From assembly GCF_002077175.1 (NCBI RefSeq), contig NZ_CP014943.1:3782001-3846000 (forward strand): a stretch of 64,000 nt of DNA, in the 5' to 3' direction. The DNA comes from Colwellia sp. PAMC 21821. GTDB taxonomy: Bacteria; Pseudomonadota; Gammaproteobacteria; Enterobacterales; Alteromonadaceae. Position numbers and translations under genes: made by a program. This document shows, piece by piece, positions 1-5,650 of the stretch. Under the pieces are notes generated by a model. The model worked only from the letters and a program-made list of their open reading frames with translations. It ran no database searches and was not told where the DNA came from. Every line of letters starts with the position of its first letter. Positions within the stretch are counted from its first letter, which is position 1.

Positions 1-607
1 GGGTATCATAGTAGGGCACATAAATTATATCGGGTTGTCTTGATTCAATAATGATTGTTTTCGTTTCACGAACAACGTTAACGTTGTTCATGTTTTTAAG
101 GTTTCCTGCTTGATCTGCTTGTTGACGCAAGATTTGCACACTGGCAAGCACTTGTGCCTCATCTTGCAAAAAAGCATCACCTAAATTACGCATCCAATGC
201 AAATCATCGCTTAATTTCTTCAGTACGTTTGGAAACGGTAGAAGGGCTTTAACGCTGGCATCCCAATCTTTATCATCTGCAGCGTCGGCAAGTGCCTGTG
301 CGCTTAGTTGACTGTTTTTACTTAACCATCGTTCAGCGTCAACAACTTCAATTGGGTATGTTGTCGCAATAAGGATATGGGTCAGTAACGTGTCTGGGTA
401 TAATGCAATGGGGGCCAGCATTTGCTCAAGCTCAGCATGTGTAAAATCACTAGTGATTGTTTGTTCTGATAAGGTTGAATCACTATTTGGACCATAGTAA
501 GTTTTACTAGAGTTTTCTGCGCTAAAGCCTGGTGTGGATAGCACTAGTGCACTTGATAGAGAAAAAAGTAAGTGACTGAGTGACCTTTTAAAATTAACGT
601 TTAGCAT
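1..607 (-). CDS. DUF3300 family exported protein (partial, runs off left edge)
   Basis: The reading frame starts at the ATG complementary to 605-607, behind a strong AAGGAGA ribosome binding site, and stays open to the edge of the window (about 202 codons visible). The N-terminus looks like a signal peptide ending near PGFSA. About 35 residues further on comes the segment LAPIALYPDTLL followed by TTYPIEVVDAERW, which is the hallmark of the DUF3300 family of exported proteins of unknown function. The C-terminus is missing because of the window edge, not because the gene is broken. It lies downstream of the PhoP/PhoQ-like genes, but a separate promoter with a PhoP-like box sits between them, so it is probably its own transcription unit. 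Confidence 0.85.
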   Translation of the reverse strand, partial: MLNVNFKRSLSHLLFSLSSALVLSTPGFSAENSSKTYYGPNSDSTLSEQTITSDFTHAELEQMLAPIALYPDTLLTHILIATTYPIEVVDAERWLSKNSQLSAQALADAADDKDWDASVKALLPFPNVLKKLSDDLHWMRNLGDAFLQDEAQVLASVQILRQQADQAGNLKNMNNVNVVRETKTIIIESRQPDIIYVPYYDT

Positions 608-700: not shown

Positions 701-735
701 ATATTAACAGCTGTAAACTGAACGTTAGCTGAACA
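701..735 (-). promoter_or_regulatory. PhoP-box-like direct repeat and -10 upstream of the DUF3300 gene
   Basis: Reading the minus strand, TGTTCA (735-730), five bases, CGTTCA (724-719), then exactly 12 bases and a TAATAT hexamer (706-701). A partial third repeat (GTTTA) follows at the next 11-bp step. The enterobacterial PhoP box is a (G/T)GTTTA-N5-(G/T)GTTTA direct repeat, typically about 12 bp upstream of the -10. The orientation suits the DUF3300 gene and predicts a leader of roughly 90 nt. The same layout occurs at two other promoters in the first 5 kb. Confidence 0.65.
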
Positions 736-742
736 AACATGT

Positions 743-2125
743 TTATAAAGGAAAGTTAAGCGTAAATTTTGCGCCTTTTAGTTGCTTTGACGATTCGATG
801 TGCATACTGCCTTGGTAACTTTTAACCAAATCTCGCACAATTGCCAAGCCAATGCCATGACCATGTTGATAGGTATCTGCTCGAGTTCCGCGTTGTAATA
901 TCTCTTCTCTAAGTGTTGGGTCTATGCCAACACCGTCATCTTGAATAATAATAGTCATGCTATTTGCACTAAGCTTAATTTCCAGGTGAACTTGTTTTTT
1001 TGCCGCTTTACAGGCGTTGTCTAACAAGTTACCCAGTATTTCTAATAGATCGGATTCATCGCCTTTAAAGTTGCATTCAGGCGGAATGTTGACAGTGAAT
1101 AGTAGTTCTTTGTCTCGATATATTTTAGTTAAACTATTAAGTAATTTATTCGCTATTGGAGCGACTGCAGTGCCTAAATACCATGATGATTGTCCAGCAC
1201 TTTGTGCTTTACGAAGCTGATGCTCAATAATCACATTAATAATACTGAGTTGCTCTTGGGTCAGTACCGATAACTCTTTTTGAGTTTGCATAACCGCTAA
1301 CGGAGTTTTTAGGCTATGAGCAAGATCAGAAAGTGCATTACGATAGCGCTGACGCTGTTTTTGTTCAGCATTTAGTAACAAGTTCAACTGCTCTGTTACT
1401 TGATTTAACTCAGTTGGATAAGTCCCCGTAAGTCGTTCGCTTTTACCCTGTTCAACATCGCTAAGTTCGGTGCTTAAATTCTTTAAAGGCTTTAAAGTCC
1501 ATATTGACCACAGATATTGAATCAACAAAAGCACCAGCATTAAACCCGCTAACCCTAGCATAAGTTGGCGGTGAAACTCTGCCATCATGTGAGTTAAGTC
1601 GTTTTGCTGTTTTATAATATGCAATGTCATGGGAAAAGGTTGTTCTTCACTGCCATAACTGACACTTAAGCTGTAGATATAATGTGCCTGGGCATCAATC
1701 TCAGCTTGATAAAAAGCACTTTCTCCTAAGCTAGGTTGTCGAAAAGTTGTTGTTTGCCATGGTGCTAGTAATGATTGAGAGCTCCAAAGCTTGATTGATT
1801 CAGTCGCGGGGTTTGGCGCTGAGTAGTTTTGTATTGTGGTTGAGCTAGTTGTTAGAACTGCATATAAGCCAGATTGACTGACATTAAATTGAGTCTCCAA
1901 TAGCTGTTCAGGCATAACAAGCGTGTTATTTTCAACTTCAATAATAGCTAAAATAGAGTAGGAATAAGCTGAAAGTTCATTTTTTAAACTCGCCACCATA
2001 TGTTTTTCATAGGCATTACTGATGATTAACCCGACGATAGGTAATAAGATAAAAATCATCAGTAAAGCACTAAATAGCACTCTTGTTTTTAATGAGTTCA
2101 AGGATTTTTTCAGCGAATTAAACAA
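743..2125 (-). CDS. phoQ: PhoQ-like sensor histidine kinase
   Basis: A 460-residue inner-membrane sensor kinase, partner of the response regulator just upstream. It has a membrane segment near residues 17-37, a periplasmic sensor of about 150 residues, a second membrane segment near 188-208, a HAMP-like linker, a dimerisation helix with His270 in DLAHSLKTPLAV, and an ATPase domain with DNACKAA (N box), DDGVGID (G1) and GHGIGLAIV (G2). The H-box is the version typical of PhoQ rather than EnvZ or QseC, but the sensor domain is too diverged to infer the signal. The longest frame starts with a TTG (2125-2123) preceded by AAAGGC. There is a 70-nt gap to the regulator gene. Confidence 0.8.
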   Translation of the reverse strand: MFNSLKKSLNSLKTRVLFSALLMIFILLPIVGLIISNAYEKHMVASLKNELSAYSYSILAIIEVENNTLVMPEQLLETQFNVSQSGLYAVLTTSSTTIQNYSAPNPATESIKLWSSQSLLAPWQTTTFRQPSLGESAFYQAEIDAQAHYIYSLSVSYGSEEQPFPMTLHIIKQQNDLTHMMAEFHRQLMLGLAGLMLVLLLIQYLWSIWTLKPLKNLSTELSDVEQGKSERLTGTYPTELNQVTEQLNLLLNAEQKQRQRYRNALSDLAHSLKTPLAVMQTQKELSVLTQEQLSIINVIIEHQLRKAQSAGQSSWYLGTAVAPIANKLLNSLTKIYRDKELLFTVNIPPECNFKGDESDLLEILGNLLDNACKAAKKQVHLEIKLSANSMTIIIQDDGVGIDPTLREEILQRGTRADTYQHGHGIGLAIVRDLVKSYQGSMHIESSKQLKGAKFTLNFPL

Positions 2126-2195
2126 CTAAGATTGCCTTTTATAAGTTTTATATATTTTATAAGCTTTAAATTAATGACTTACTTCTTTAGTTAAA

Positions 2196-2885
2196 TCAGC
2201 CTAAATTAAAGCTAGATAAGTCTTTTAATAAGTAGCCTTGACCTCGTAAAGTCTCAATAAACTGATATTTATTTTCGGGATCAAGTTTCTTTCTTAATCG
2301 TCGAATAAAAACTTCAATAACGTTTGAGTCCAAGTCGAAGTCTTGATCATAAATATGTTCAGTAAGCTGAGCTTTAGACTTTACTTCACCTAAGTGGTGC
2401 ATCAAGTATTCAAATAGTTTGTATTCATAACTACTCAAAGAAATGGTTTTTTCATCAACGCTAACTTGCATACTTGAGGTGTTAATCGTAAACGGACCAT
2501 TTTCGATCAACGGGCTTGCTTGTCCAGCACTGCGTCGAATTAATGCATTTAATCTTGCGAGTAGCTCTTCAATATGAAAAGGTTTCGTTAAATAGTCATC
2601 AGCACCAGCATCTAATCCTGAAACTTTATCTTGCCAACTACCTCGGGCCGTTAATATTAATATGGGGAATGTAAAACCTTGTTCACGTAACGATTTAATA
2701 ACGCTTACGCCGTCAAGCTTTGGTAGACCTAAGTCAATAATTGCGGCATCGTAAGGAAACTCTTGACCTTGAAATAACCCAGACTCACCATCACCTGCAA
2801 CATCAACACTATATTTAGCGGCCATTAAATGTTCTTTAACGTGTGCTTGCAGATTTTTATCGTCTTCGACAAGTAATATTCTCAT
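2196..2885 (-). CDS. phoP: PhoP-like OmpR-family response regulator
   Basis: A 229-residue transcription factor. The receiver domain (about 1-115) has the acidic pair EDD at 7-9, phosphoacceptor Asp51 in IIDLGLP, Thr79 and Lys101 in TKPFHIEE. The C-terminal winged-helix domain (about 130-225) ends with the usual RRLRKKL and RGQGYLL segments. The runs SWQDKV and AGADDYLTKPFHIEE closely match PhoP of enterobacteria. It is the middle gene of PepSY-regulator-kinase, only 6 nt after the PepSY gene. The PhoP-like box upstream of that operon suggests autoregulation. Confidence 0.85.
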   Translation of the reverse strand: MRILLVEDDKNLQAHVKEHLMAAKYSVDVAGDGESGLFQGQEFPYDAAIIDLGLPKLDGVSVIKSLREQGFTFPILILTARGSWQDKVSGLDAGADDYLTKPFHIEELLARLNALIRRSAGQASPLIENGPFTINTSSMQVSVDEKTISLSSYEYKLFEYLMHHLGEVKSKAQLTEHIYDQDFDLDSNVIEVFIRRLRKKLDPENKYQFIETLRGQGYLLKDLSSFNLG

Positions 2886-2891
2886 TGATTA

Positions 2892-3200
2892 TTATCCTGA
2901 TATACGGCCCGATTGGGCGTCAACACTGACTGAAATTACATGGCCATTGTCTTTAAGTAGTTTCACTCGGTAGCTTGGATTTTTTTTAGAACCACTATTG
3001 TTAACCTTTAATACCTTACCGCCAAATTTGTTTTTAACTATTCGGGCAGCTTGTTGAGCAGTGATTGATTTATTGTCACTCGCTTGACCATATTTAGCCT
3101 TTACAATCATCATACTATTGGGTGCAGCTTCAATTTTAGCAAACACTGGGGCTGCTATTAATAAAGCTATTACGCTTAGAATAAATAATTGTTTTTTCAT
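2892..3200 (-). CDS. Small exported PepSY-domain protein
   Basis: A 102-residue protein with a clear signal peptide (MKKQLFILSVIALLIAAPVFA) and a single C-terminal PepSY domain: ITAQQAARIVKNKFGGKVLKV, then YRVKLL and a final VSVDAQSGRISG strand. PepSY domains are often found next to two-component systems and are thought to inhibit proteases or modulate sensors in the periplasm. It is the first gene of the operon with the PhoP/PhoQ-like pair, so it may feed back on the kinase. That role is inference from position only. Confidence 0.8.
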   Translation of the reverse strand: MKKQLFILSVIALLIAAPVFAKIEAAPNSMMIVKAKYGQASDNKSITAQQAARIVKNKFGGKVLKVNNSGSKKNPSYRVKLLKDNGHVISVSVDAQSGRISG

Positions 3201-3270
3201 TTAAGTACCTTCTTAAAATTACCTTATTAGACAGTGTAAAATAATGATTGCTGTAATCCAAGTAACCGTT

Positions 3271-3305
3271 ATTTTAAAATAGCCAAGCTGAATGCTTTAT
3301 GAACA
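3271..3305 (-). promoter_or_regulatory. PhoP-box-like direct repeat and -10 of the PepSY-phoP-phoQ operon
   Basis: On the minus strand TGTTCA (3305-3300), five bases, CATTCA (3294-3289), then exactly 12 bases and TAAAAT (3276-3271), a 5/6 match to the -10 consensus. The spacing is identical to the boxes at 701-735 and 4760-4794. It lies about 70 bp upstream of the PepSY start and fits autoregulation by the PhoP-like regulator. Confidence 0.65.
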
Positions 3306-3461
3306 TATTATATTCATTGTTTAATTTCCATATCGTAGGCCTTTAAGATATCAGCCGTCAGTTGATGAACTTTTGATAGGCTTGTGCTCTAGCTGATAGC
3401 TAAAATGTTAACATCGCAGAGATTCCAACGAAGTTGACATCGCGGGTATGACCCCGTTGGT

Positions 3462-3484
3462 AAAAAGGGCATCAAATGATGCCC
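3462..3484 (-). terminator. Terminator of the DUF1499 gene
   Basis: Perfect 7-bp stem GGGCATC/GATGCCC with an AAAT loop (3467-3484), followed on the minus strand by five Ts (complement of 3462-3466). It lies 44 nt past the DUF1499 stop codon. The rest of the 3201-3527 gap holds only the PepSY operon promoter. Confidence 0.8.
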
Positions 3485-3527
3485 TTATTTTAATACTGGT
3501 TGTGATAATCAGTGATTGTATTTTTAT

Positions 3528-4256
3528 TTATTTATCAGAGAAAACCGCGATAAATTTTTCAATACGAGCAGCATTAGCACCCAGATCTGTACCGCCAATA
3601 CGTGAAATTGAACGCAAATCTACTTTACTACCTGTCCCTAATGCTTGAACACGAATAGCAATATCATCTTTAAATGCCCATAGTGCCGTAGTTTCAACCG
3701 CTTCAATAAGGCCTTGTTGCTCATTTTTAGCGATAACTTCCCAGCCTAAATTTAAGGCAACTTCAAGGGCTTTAGCAAACGCTTGCTCTTTATTTAATTG
3801 ACTAAGTATTGGCTTTAATTCTGGGTATGCAGCTAATTGTAGTGGCGCAAGCTTTTCTTGGTCATAAGCTAGCGGATTACTGTTTTCGCCACGCAAGGCT
3901 ATAATGGCGTTAAATTTAGGTAAATTAACCGTATCAGTAGTCACTTGATGTAGAAAAGGTAGTGATTTCGCTTTAGAAGCTTGCATCGACAAACCTATAA
4001 CAGGTATTGCAGATAATATCGCAATAAAAGCACAACGTTTTGCCAATGGATATTGTTTCTTAAAGAGAGTAAAAAACCCAATCAATATCGACACTGCTAA
4101 TACAGCAATACTGGCATAACCCGTATATTTAATAATTTGAAAAGACACTCCCATCGGCCATAATTCCATTCGATAAGCGATCACAGCGATAGGAAACCCT
4201 AACAGCAAAGGAATAACAACGGCCTTACAGGCTTTGGTGATGGTGTTAATTAACAT
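3528..4256 (-). CDS. DUF1499 family membrane protein
   Basis: A 242-residue protein of unknown function. Three hydrophobic segments occupy roughly the first 105 residues, followed by a soluble DUF1499 domain. The conserved C-terminal part reads DIAIRVQA, DLRSISRIGGTDLGANAARIEKF, typical of the family. I chose the ATG at 4256 because AGGA sits five bases upstream; a TTG at 4268 would add four residues but would overlap this binding site. It is transcribed alone and ends in the hairpin at 3462-3484. No PhoP-like box is visible upstream of it. Confidence 0.8.
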   Translation of the reverse strand: MLINTITKACKAVVIPLLLGFPIAVIAYRMELWPMGVSFQIIKYTGYASIAVLAVSILIGFFTLFKKQYPLAKRCAFIAILSAIPVIGLSMQASKAKSLPFLHQVTTDTVNLPKFNAIIALRGENSNPLAYDQEKLAPLQLAAYPELKPILSQLNKEQAFAKALEVALNLGWEVIAKNEQQGLIEAVETTALWAFKDDIAIRVQALGTGSKVDLRSISRIGGTDLGANAARIEKFIAVFSDK

Positions 4257-4759
4257 AAATATCCTCAAGTTTTTGATATGGCGTACTAATTACAATTGGT
4301 TTCGTAAGTCTAAACGTCAAAAGCCATGTTTAGTGCATTGAACAACAGCCGGCATTTTGACACTTATACTGACATATAAAAAGTGCTTTTCACTTAAACG
4401 CTAACGTTAGCGATAGTAAAAATAAATACCGTAAATTAATGACTAACGACCTATATATATTATCCAAAGTACATACGTAAATATGTCAGTATTGGATCTT
4501 AAACTTTAAATTAAACATCAATCTCTTTTCTAATGTCTGCAATATCTGAATACTTGCCATTATAAATGTAAATATAAGTCTTAAGGCCTGTTTACGTATT
4601 AAGACGAGCATTCATTGAAAAAAACTGATGGTGAATATAAAGGGTGTTTGGTGGTAAACGTAGATGTTATTTAATGGTAATAATGCCTATTAAGAATCAG
4701 CAAATTTATTGTGATTAAGTGACAAAGCTAAGGTAATTATCTACAAATTAAGTGAACAT
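4257..4759. other. Long intergenic region between divergent genes
   Basis: About 500 bp with no convincing gene on either strand. It must hold the promoter of the minus-strand DUF1499 gene. It contains a perfect 12-bp palindrome GCTAACGTTAGC at 4400-4411, a possible operator. I see no tRNA, long repeat or mobile element. Confidence 0.5.
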
Positions 4760-4794
4760 TGTTCAGCTTCGGTTCAGAATAACTCTGGTTAAAT
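4760..4794 (+). promoter_or_regulatory. PhoP-box-like direct repeat and -10 of the GlyGly-CTERM protein gene
   Basis: TGTTCA (4760-4765), five bases, GGTTCA (4771-4776), exactly 12 bases, then TTAAAT (4789-4794). Transcription would begin near 4801. That excludes the upstream in-frame ATG at 4793 and supports the ATG at 4826 as the start. Confidence 0.65.
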
Positions 4795-4825: not shown

Positions 4826-5650
4826 ATGTTTAATATACTATTTAAGAAAACTTTTAATAAAAAGTTAACCATCAATTTAACAGCAACATTACTTTTAGTA
4901 AGCCAAATATCTCTTGCACAAACATCGACAACAATTGAACAGGTAAGTAACTCTGTTGGCGGGACAAAAAGTAATATTGACTCTATAAAATCAGACGGTA
5001 AATCCCAGAGGACCTTAGCATTTAAAGGCATGAATAGAACGGAGGTAACACTTGCTCGCCAACAAAAAGAAAAAAACCTTGCGTCAACATCTTCAACATC
5101 ATCTTCAAGCCAAAGTGTTGTTTATAGTTCTAGTTTTTATCACAGTTTTTCAATTTACACTGGCTATAGTCAACTTATTACGGATATAGACGAAGATGGC
5201 TATTATCAGACATTTAGCGTTGTTTTCGATGCAGATTTATTATCACCAATGGCTAATGAACAAGCGGTTGTTTATGCCGACTTATACCTAAGTCAAAATG
5301 GTGGTCCTTGGGTATTGTATTTCTCTACTGACGATTTTGTTATAACGGGGGAAAATACAGACGATGAGTTTGAGGTGGTTACGGAATTAGATTCTGGCTA
5401 TGTACCCGACTATTACGACGTGTTAATTGACTTGTATGAAGTAGGTTATAGTGATGTGGTGGCTACTTACAGTTCAAATGACAGTAACGAACTTTATGCA
5501 CTGCCATTAGAAAGTAGTGACTATGATCCTGAATACATTGAAGTCGAATATGTTGAGGTTGAATACTACGAAAAACACTCAGGAGGCGGTATTTGGTTAT
5601 TGTTTGGCGCGCTATTAGTATTAGGAGTACGCCTGATTAAATTGAAGTAA
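4826..5650 (+). CDS. Exported choice-of-anchor-H-like protein with GlyGly-CTERM-like tail
   Basis: A 274-residue protein. The N-terminal signal peptide ends near ISLAQ. A Ser/Thr-rich linker is followed by an acidic domain rich in Tyr, Asp and Glu, ending in SDYDPEYIEVEYVEVEYYE. The C-terminus is a short Gly-rich motif (SGGGIW), a hydrophobic helix and a final RLIKLK, resembling GlyGly-CTERM sorting signals that are cut by rhombosortase. The overall plan resembles proteins annotated as choice-of-anchor H family. The start at 4826 has AAAGG eight bases upstream; an ATG at 4793 lacks a binding site and overlaps the predicted -10. The molecular function is unknown. Confidence 0.75.
   Translation: MFNILFKKTFNKKLTINLTATLLLVSQISLAQTSTTIEQVSNSVGGTKSNIDSIKSDGKSQRTLAFKGMNRTEVTLARQQKEKNLASTSSTSSSSQSVVYSSSFYHSFSIYTGYSQLITDIDEDGYYQTFSVVFDADLLSPMANEQAVVYADLYLSQNGGPWVLYFSTDDFVITGENTDDEFEVVTELDSGYVPDYYDVLIDLYEVGYSDVVATYSSNDSNELYALPLESSDYDPEYIEVEYVEVEYYEKHSGGGIWLLFGALLVLGVRLIKLK

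Follow-up and report, generated by a model that had tools for sequence, protein, structure and literature searches.

Candidate PhoP-type promoters in and around a PepSY-regulator-kinase operon of Colwellia sp. PAMC 21821 and its relatives

Three promoter boxes at a two-component locus

The window analysed here is a stretch of 64000 nucleotides of the Colwellia sp. PAMC 21821 genome (NCBI RefSeq assembly GCF_002077175.1, contig NZ_CP014943.1, positions 3,782,001 to 3,846,000 of the forward strand), near the start of which lies a minus-strand operon encoding a two-component system; positions given below are those of the window. The first gene of the operon encodes a PepSY-domain protein (2892–3200, minus strand; PF03413, 28.3 bits) and is followed by those for an OmpR-family response regulator, a relative of PhoP (2196–2885, minus strand), and for a sensor histidine kinase (743–2125, minus strand), in which a PhoQ-like catalytic half, with 35% identity to E. 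coli PhoQ over residues 198–458 only, is joined to a different sensor. The regulator, which we propose as the protein that binds the boxes described below, has both the receiver (PF00072) and the winged-helix effector domain (PF00486) that mark the OmpR/PhoB family. Beyond the kinase gene lies the start of a gene for a DUF3300 protein (1–607, minus strand; PF11737, 226.7 bits), which continues past the edge of the window. On the other side of the operon a choice-of-anchor H protein with a Gly-Gly/hydrophobic C-terminus (hereafter anchor-H) is encoded on the plus strand (4826–5650; NF038116, 140.3 bits); its start is taken as 4826, a longer frame beginning at 4793, within the −10 element.

Three promoters at this locus carry a direct repeat followed by a −10 hexamer. 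The site of DUF3300 (735–701, minus strand) reads TGTTCA-GCTAA-CGTTCA-N12-TAATAT, with the half-sites at 735–730 and 724–719 and the hexamer at 706–701. That of the PepSY-regulator-kinase operon (3305–3271, minus strand) reads TGTTCA-TAAAG-CATTCA-N12-TAAAAT (3305–3300, 3294–3289 and 3276–3271), and that of anchor-H (4760–4794, plus strand) reads TGTTCA-GCTTC-GGTTCA-N12-TTAAAT (4760–4765, 4771–4776 and 4789–4794). The initial annotation of this DNA had listed these three sites, and its strands, 12-base spacing and −10 hexamers agree base for base with the sequence. It had also likened the arrangement to the enterobacterial PhoP box, (G/T)GTTTA-N5-(G/T)GTTTA placed 12 bp before the −10, and for the architecture this likeness holds: the 11-bp direct repeat and the 12 bp to the −10, present at all three window sites, equal those of the E. 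coli phoP promoter, which we read as GGTTTA-N5-TGTTTA-N12-CATAAT. The half-sites themselves are GTTCA or ATTCA at all three window sites and not the enterobacterial GTTTA. They fit the Pseudomonas-type pattern GTTCAG-N5-RTTCAG, as judged by comparing a logo of 83 sites (see below) with the published consensus, the final G of the half-site being found in both halves at two window sites and in the second half only at the PepSY site.

Conservation of the box and its link to the regulator

Conservation at the orthologous genes had been named beforehand as a test of the sites, and was examined in named genomes scanned with the regulator, the best 80 of 589 loci being kept. The closest named relative of the regulator is found in Cognaticolwellia aestuarii, at 90% identity. 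In 39 of the 80 loci, from Colwellia, Thalassotalea, Litorilituus, Shewanella and relatives, the PepSY-regulator-kinase operon occurs with DUF3300 following or facing it and with a divergent anchor-H gene, anchor-H being present in 39/39 and DUF3300 in 35/39 within the fetched stretch. Across the 484 kb of these 39 loci the pattern GTTCA-N6-NTTCA occurs 80 times, compared with 1–15 times at gaps of 3–5 and 7–11, and 76 of these 80 exact boxes lie no more than approximately 420 bp upstream of one of the same three targets and on the strand of that target. An exact box precedes PepSY in 21/39 loci, anchor-H in 38/39 and DUF3300 in 16/35. When the first base of the half-site is allowed to be A or G, these figures become 35/39, 39/39 and 21/35 respectively, with 96 of 112 sites so placed, and the controls gave 0–1 such placements for each of five other gaps and two for the backwards pattern. 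The logo of 83 sites (these 80 and the three of the window) reads TGTTCAGCTTNTRTTCAGYTT, then the −10, of which the first T is kept in 88% and the last T in 96%.

The genome was also scanned with a matrix, as the initial annotation had proposed. This sequence-only matrix included the −10 and was built from 61 sites with T at both ends of the −10, the window and two loci of the same genus (L008 and L009; individual loci and genomes are cited by L and G numbers) being left out. The full matrix proved to be specific, with the window sites in ranks 1, 2 and 4 among the 20 hits obtained at E≤10 in the 4.88-Mb single-contig genome, the DUF3300 site as the best hit in the genome (22.9 bits) and the anchor-H site as the second (20.3 bits). 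Rank 3 (17.7 bits; L122 1501–1530, i.e. G000:C1:3158501–3158530) lies approximately 90 bp before a SIMPL (DUF541) gene situated about 0.62 Mb from the window sites. SIMPL-like genes with an upstream site were found in two more of four sampled genomes of the genus, at a distance of 257 bp in G007 (by sequence only) and 81 bp in G091 (Pfam-checked). The distant SIMPL gene is probably a fourth member of the regulon, and the ‘local PhoP regulon’ of the initial annotation stands in that the conserved promoters belong to a single regulon, with the operon of the regulator itself as one of its members, but this regulon is not a purely local one.

Three of the seven exact matches to the bare pattern in the genome fall within 4.1 kb, all with a −10 at equal distance, and a post hoc Poisson estimate for such clustering is 2.7e-8 for one such stretch and 3e-5 over all stretches. 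The other four exact matches (L001, L002, L003 and L007) are absent from the 20 matrix hits, and three of them lie inside open frames of more than 150 amino acids.

We also scanned 118 family genomes with the matrix under stricter filters, a close regulator being defined as one at least 66% identical. Within 6 kb of the regulator lie 69 of the 92 hits at E<0.005, and among the 23 hits far from it ten precede known targets: four DUF3300 genes (in G008, 15 kb from the regulator, and in G013, G061 and G095), five anchor-H genes (G013, G061, G095, G022 and G107) and one SIMPL gene (G091). Four more (L183, L184, L185 and L198) lie inside open frames and were set aside as likely chance, and nine have no explanation, namely those at lpxC (L173), in G020 (L192–L195), at a gene for a TPR protein (L174), at porin genes (L187 and L199) and at L197. 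The L173 hit, seen in one genome only (G052), is a high-scoring box 190 bp before lpxC, which encodes the enzyme that commits to lipid A. G020 has eight matrix hits at E≤0.05 and a distant regulator, neither DUF3300 nor anchor-H having been found there, and its hits possibly represent a different, larger regulon.

As these remote targets had first been found via their boxes, DUF3300 and anchor-H genes were searched for independently in the 118 genomes and checked for an upstream matrix hit, all hits at E≤0.05 being counted. DUF3300 has a box in 32/35 cases beside a close regulator and in 6/6 elsewhere in such genomes (38/41 together). Five of the latter six are truly away from the close regulator; the sixth (G076) was dropped as a relocated gene, since the kinase directly precedes DUF3300 there and the contig has simply broken. 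In G040, for example, DUF3300 is on another contig with no kinase before it and has the box. Anchor-H has a box in 30/38 cases beside a close regulator and in 3/4 elsewhere in such genomes, the single miss being a second copy in G101. Among genomes of the family whose regulator is distant or absent, a box was found at 0/42 DUF3300 genes and at 2/48 anchor-H genes. The box on these two genes thus tracks the type of the regulator, and the gene neighbourhood is not needed. Counted by genome, a hit at E≤0.005 is present in 34/42 genomes with a close regulator, 8/59 with a distant one and 1/17 with none, and at E≤0.05 in 41/42, 14/59 and 3/17 respectively; G107, the single regulator-less genome with a hit at E≤0.005, is an incomplete assembly in which the hit precedes anchor-H at a contig end.

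Further afield, the site has DUF3300 or anchor-H as a neighbour in seven of nine newly fetched hit loci from 148 order genomes, the exceptions being L272 and L279. In the class, the regulator was found in 82/185 genomes at E≤1e-62, and 24 of the 28 best new loci have TTCA-N7-TTCA upstream in the sense direction (26 sites), compared with 0–6 sites at other gaps from 2 to 12 and two in antisense; one of these 28 loci is without upstream DNA and the regulator of L225 is that of L069. The full RTTCAG-N5-RTTCAG is read in 21 of the 26 sites, and in 24 of them TANNNT follows after exactly 12 bases. In distant relatives a glycine-zipper gene occurs where PepSY leads in the window, either upstream of the regulator (L233, 2270–2821) or beside it and itself bearing a box (L206 and L207).

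These sites are, in our view with high probability, PhoP-type promoters, and the three genes almost certainly belong to a real, compact regulon of the locally encoded regulator. On this reading the regulator (2885–2196), probably a member of a sister clade of PhoP, would bind GTTCAG-N5-RTTCAG and would most likely activate its own operon, DUF3300 and anchor-H, and probably SIMPL, presumably in response to an envelope signal; the box at 3305–3271 is most likely the autoregulatory site of its own operon. PhoP at such promoters binds as a dimer to the repeat, which takes the place of the −35 element, and recruits RNA polymerase. The Colwellia regulator would act in the same way on its 11-bp direct repeat, the outcome being positive autoregulation of the PepSY-regulator-kinase operon and activation of two exported proteins, DUF3300 and anchor-H. 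As a guess, the kinase may in turn receive feedback from the PepSY protein.

Between the two divergent promoters lies a DUF1499 gene (3528–4268, minus strand; PF07386), which as far as seen is outside the regulon. No tblastn match to it at E≤1e-3 was found in any of the 80 related loci, and the gene therefore seems to have come between two divergent promoters, the boxes of which both survived. In the anchor-H alignment a Gly-Gly is followed by a hydrophobic stretch, and there is a well-kept DxDxDG motif that could, as a guess, bind a cation. The predicted anchor-H fold is rich in beta-strands, and a fold search with it gave weak matches only, the best being to a GH2 hydrolase (E 1.6e-4) and to the Omp28 domain 2r2c (2.1e-4). 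For the kinase model the matches were to kinase cores, to CpxA and to the catalytic domain of PhoQ, the sensor half not being identified among the matches listed. Of the target families, the DUF3300 gene yacH of E. coli is reportedly regulated by CpxR and tied to survival of cationic peptides (PMC9600279).

Kinship with PhoP-PhoQ and alternative readings

Several observations weigh against a PhoP-type regulon at these sites. The bare pattern shows no enrichment relative to shuffled DNA, a comparison that the initial annotation had named as a possible refutation: with up to two mismatches there are 50 matches in the window compared with 49.1 expected from shuffles, and the exact pattern occurs seven times in the 4.88-Mb genome compared with six for the backwards control, so that bare TGTTCA was rejected as a genome-wide detector. 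The PepSY site is the weakest of the three in the matrix scan (rank 4, 14.5 bits, E 0.225), and before PepSY and DUF3300 the exact box is found in only the part of the relatives given above. Nor is there enrichment of the exact pattern in the other 41 named loci, which are more distant: it occurs six times compared with 2–11 times at other gaps. Upstream of the operon even the best sites there are degenerate (e.g. ATTCAG-N5-RTTMA), an 11-bp repeat of TTCA on one strand or the other being found in 18/41, and Pseudoalteromonas, Alteromonas and Rheinheimera have degenerate versions only. In addition, members of the same family were among the training loci of the matrix, which biases the family counts in favour of close relatives, and the box is largely absent from DUF3300 and anchor-H in family genomes with a distant regulator or none.

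The initial annotation had called the operon phoPQ itself. That it is a true phoPQ orthologue, and the regulon the PhoP regulon of Colwellia, we consider unlikely, with evidence on both sides. The regulator shares 44% identity with E. coli PhoP, its best-scoring NCBIfam model is that of PhoP, and its promoter shares the architecture of E. coli phoP. Moreover, of the 13 regulators in the genome that match the PhoP model at E≤1e-20 it scores 211.5 bits and the next 137.9, so that the genome has no second regulator with a strong likeness to PhoP. Against this, the regulator reaches 212 bits on the PhoP equivalog NF008078 (211.5 in the genome search), well under the curated cut-off of 336, the kinase reaches 211 bits on the PhoQ model with its cut-off of 497, and the PhoQ sensor domain PF08918, which scores 291.8 bits in E. 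coli PhoQ, gave no match in the window kinase at E≤0.001. Furthermore, four Shewanella-like genomes (G305, G368, G400 and G438; the label is inferred from tree position) carry two such regulators, one with 246–249 bits on the PhoP model and the other, beside the boxes, with 202–211 bits; the lower-scoring regulator of two of these pairs (G368 and G400) was placed in the tree and is found with the window type.

In a first tree E. coli PhoP fell together with the window-type regulator, a result in favour of identity with phoPQ, which became less likely with the second, more PhoP-like regulator of the Shewanella-like genomes. In a later tree, which is without a named P. aeruginosa PhoP, clade A unites enterobacterial PhoP with this second Shewanella-like regulator and the regulator of L262 (support 94/90, rebuilt 95/89), and clade B holds the window type and many others with support of only 90/52 (rebuilt 89/43). 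The two clades stand together on one branch apart from BasR, QseB and CusR (100/98), a point in favour of orthology. A p-AU value of 0.0018 obtained with this later tree before its rebuilding was dropped as evidence, since the group held there was too narrow to make it a test of orthology. When enterobacterial PhoP was held directly with clade B, the arrangement was not rejected (p-AU 0.34), a result that favours orthology and weighs against our placement; the sister clade is thus the best reading and is not proven. We conclude that the regulator and kinase most likely represent a widespread clade that is sister to PhoP-PhoQ. At L262, a member of clade A, a regulator and a kinase with a weak PhoQ_Sensor match (24.6 bits, over a cut-off of 22.9) are preceded by an open reading frame without a family hit, which we take to be OprH-like.

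With PhoP-PhoQ itself the Colwellia system shares the sequence identity of regulator and kinase catalytic half noted above, the order of regulator then kinase and the box at its own promoter; it differs in its probable sister-clade origin, in the undetected PhoQ sensor domain and in its PepSY leader gene. The V. cholerae system of the VC1639 kinase and visP/ygiW (PMC5636140) is similar in that a two-component system controls a small periplasmic protein, there in response to polymyxin B, whereas the leader here is PepSY and not VisP. ColR was rejected as a match, the consensus given for it (PMC2689224) being different.

It is improbable that the boxes are real but serve the regulator for repression. 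Repression by PhoP has been reported for retS of P. aeruginosa, where the box is situated after the −10 and ahead of the start codon (PMC3156716). The boxes here, by contrast, stand upstream of the −10 at a distance of 12 bp, which matches the E. coli phoP promoter and is the usual arrangement for activation.

It is slightly less probable still that another regulator of this genome binds the boxes and that the neighbourhood of this one is incidental. Many regulators of the OmpR family bind 11-bp direct repeats, and there are the 12 further regulators that match the PhoP model, but the next of them is far weaker (138 compared with 211 bits), the boxes follow the presence and type of this regulator and sit at its own promoter class-wide, and they match the consensus reported for its relative PhoP. 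Chance coincidence in AT-rich DNA, with which the unenriched bare pattern would agree, is ruled out by the conservation counts, i.e. by sites before the same genes in 39 loci and also at those genes away from the regulator, and by matrix ranks of 1, 2 and 4.

Evolution of the half-site and significance

The initial annotation had taken the half-site to have shifted to NGTTCA in this DNA. P. aeruginosa PhoP is reported to bind (C)GTTCAGNNNNNRTTCAG (PMC3156716), and a chromatin immunoprecipitation sequencing (ChIP-seq) motif, G/ATTCAG (PMC7916210), agrees with that consensus. As the P. aeruginosa consensus is the box seen here, the change in half-site is not new to this lineage, and the repeat stands before the regulator in 24/28 class-wide loci. 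The logo of 83 sites shares with the P. aeruginosa box the half-site, the spacing and the R at the second half-site, and the systems differ in that the regulator here is probably of the sister clade and has PepSY, DUF3300 and anchor-H as its targets. With the enterobacterial box the 11-bp direct repeat and N12 are shared, and the difference lies in GTTTA there compared with GTTCA(G) here, and in a recognition helix that reads ESHTIDVLM there and DSNVIEVFI here.

Among the loci compared, the exact GTTTA repeat is present at 4/7 enterobacterial PhoP loci. GTTCAG repeats occur in clade B; among clade A members they precede L262 and 4 of 22 non-enterobacterial loci (L293, L303, L308 and L309, read there as TTCA repeats), and the other 18 of the 22 have no such exact repeat, which weighs against a uniform clade A code; a search for 11-bp repeats in the 300 bp before 18 regulators of the second type gave none common to two loci. 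With GTTCAG in clade B and in part of clade A, the simplest reading is that the enterobacterial GTTTA half-site may be a derived form. The recognition helices would agree with this, to judge from a few independent changes, with clade B having DSNVIEV or something close to it, L262 ERDPNVIEV, other clade A members DPNTIEV or DSNVVEV, and most Enterobacteria examined ESHTIDV (L287 has ETHTIDV). Upstream of the regulator in L268 and L262 several GTTCAG half-sites occur in tandem at 11-bp steps, which suggests binding of a multimer.

A wider scenario can be offered only tentatively. An unnamed, ancient sister of PhoP-PhoQ would use GTTCAG autoregulation across the Gammaproteobacteria; GTTCAG would be ancestral to both sisters, with GTTTA and the helix change from DSNVIEV to ESHTIDV coming later; both sisters would persist in some Shewanella-like genomes; and in Colwellia and Shewanella the sister would govern a compact regulon of uncharacterised envelope proteins.

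A search of the open-access literature, which left the subscription literature mostly outside its reach, gave no description of this regulon among the matches listed, and in the open-access literature searched DUF3300 is named in three papers and choice-of-anchor H in none. The present analysis offers a putative binding code together with a regulator and a small set of targets from little-described families, namely DUF3300, choice-of-anchor H and the PepSY leader. The textbook view of the PhoP box may be turned round, with the enterobacterial half-site as the exception, and the evolution of specificity in a master regulator is made testable in terms of one helix and one base. Finally, some Shewanella-like genomes would keep both sisters, in which case two regulators with a shared ancestor have to stay distinct, and these paired relatives raise the question of how crosstalk is avoided.

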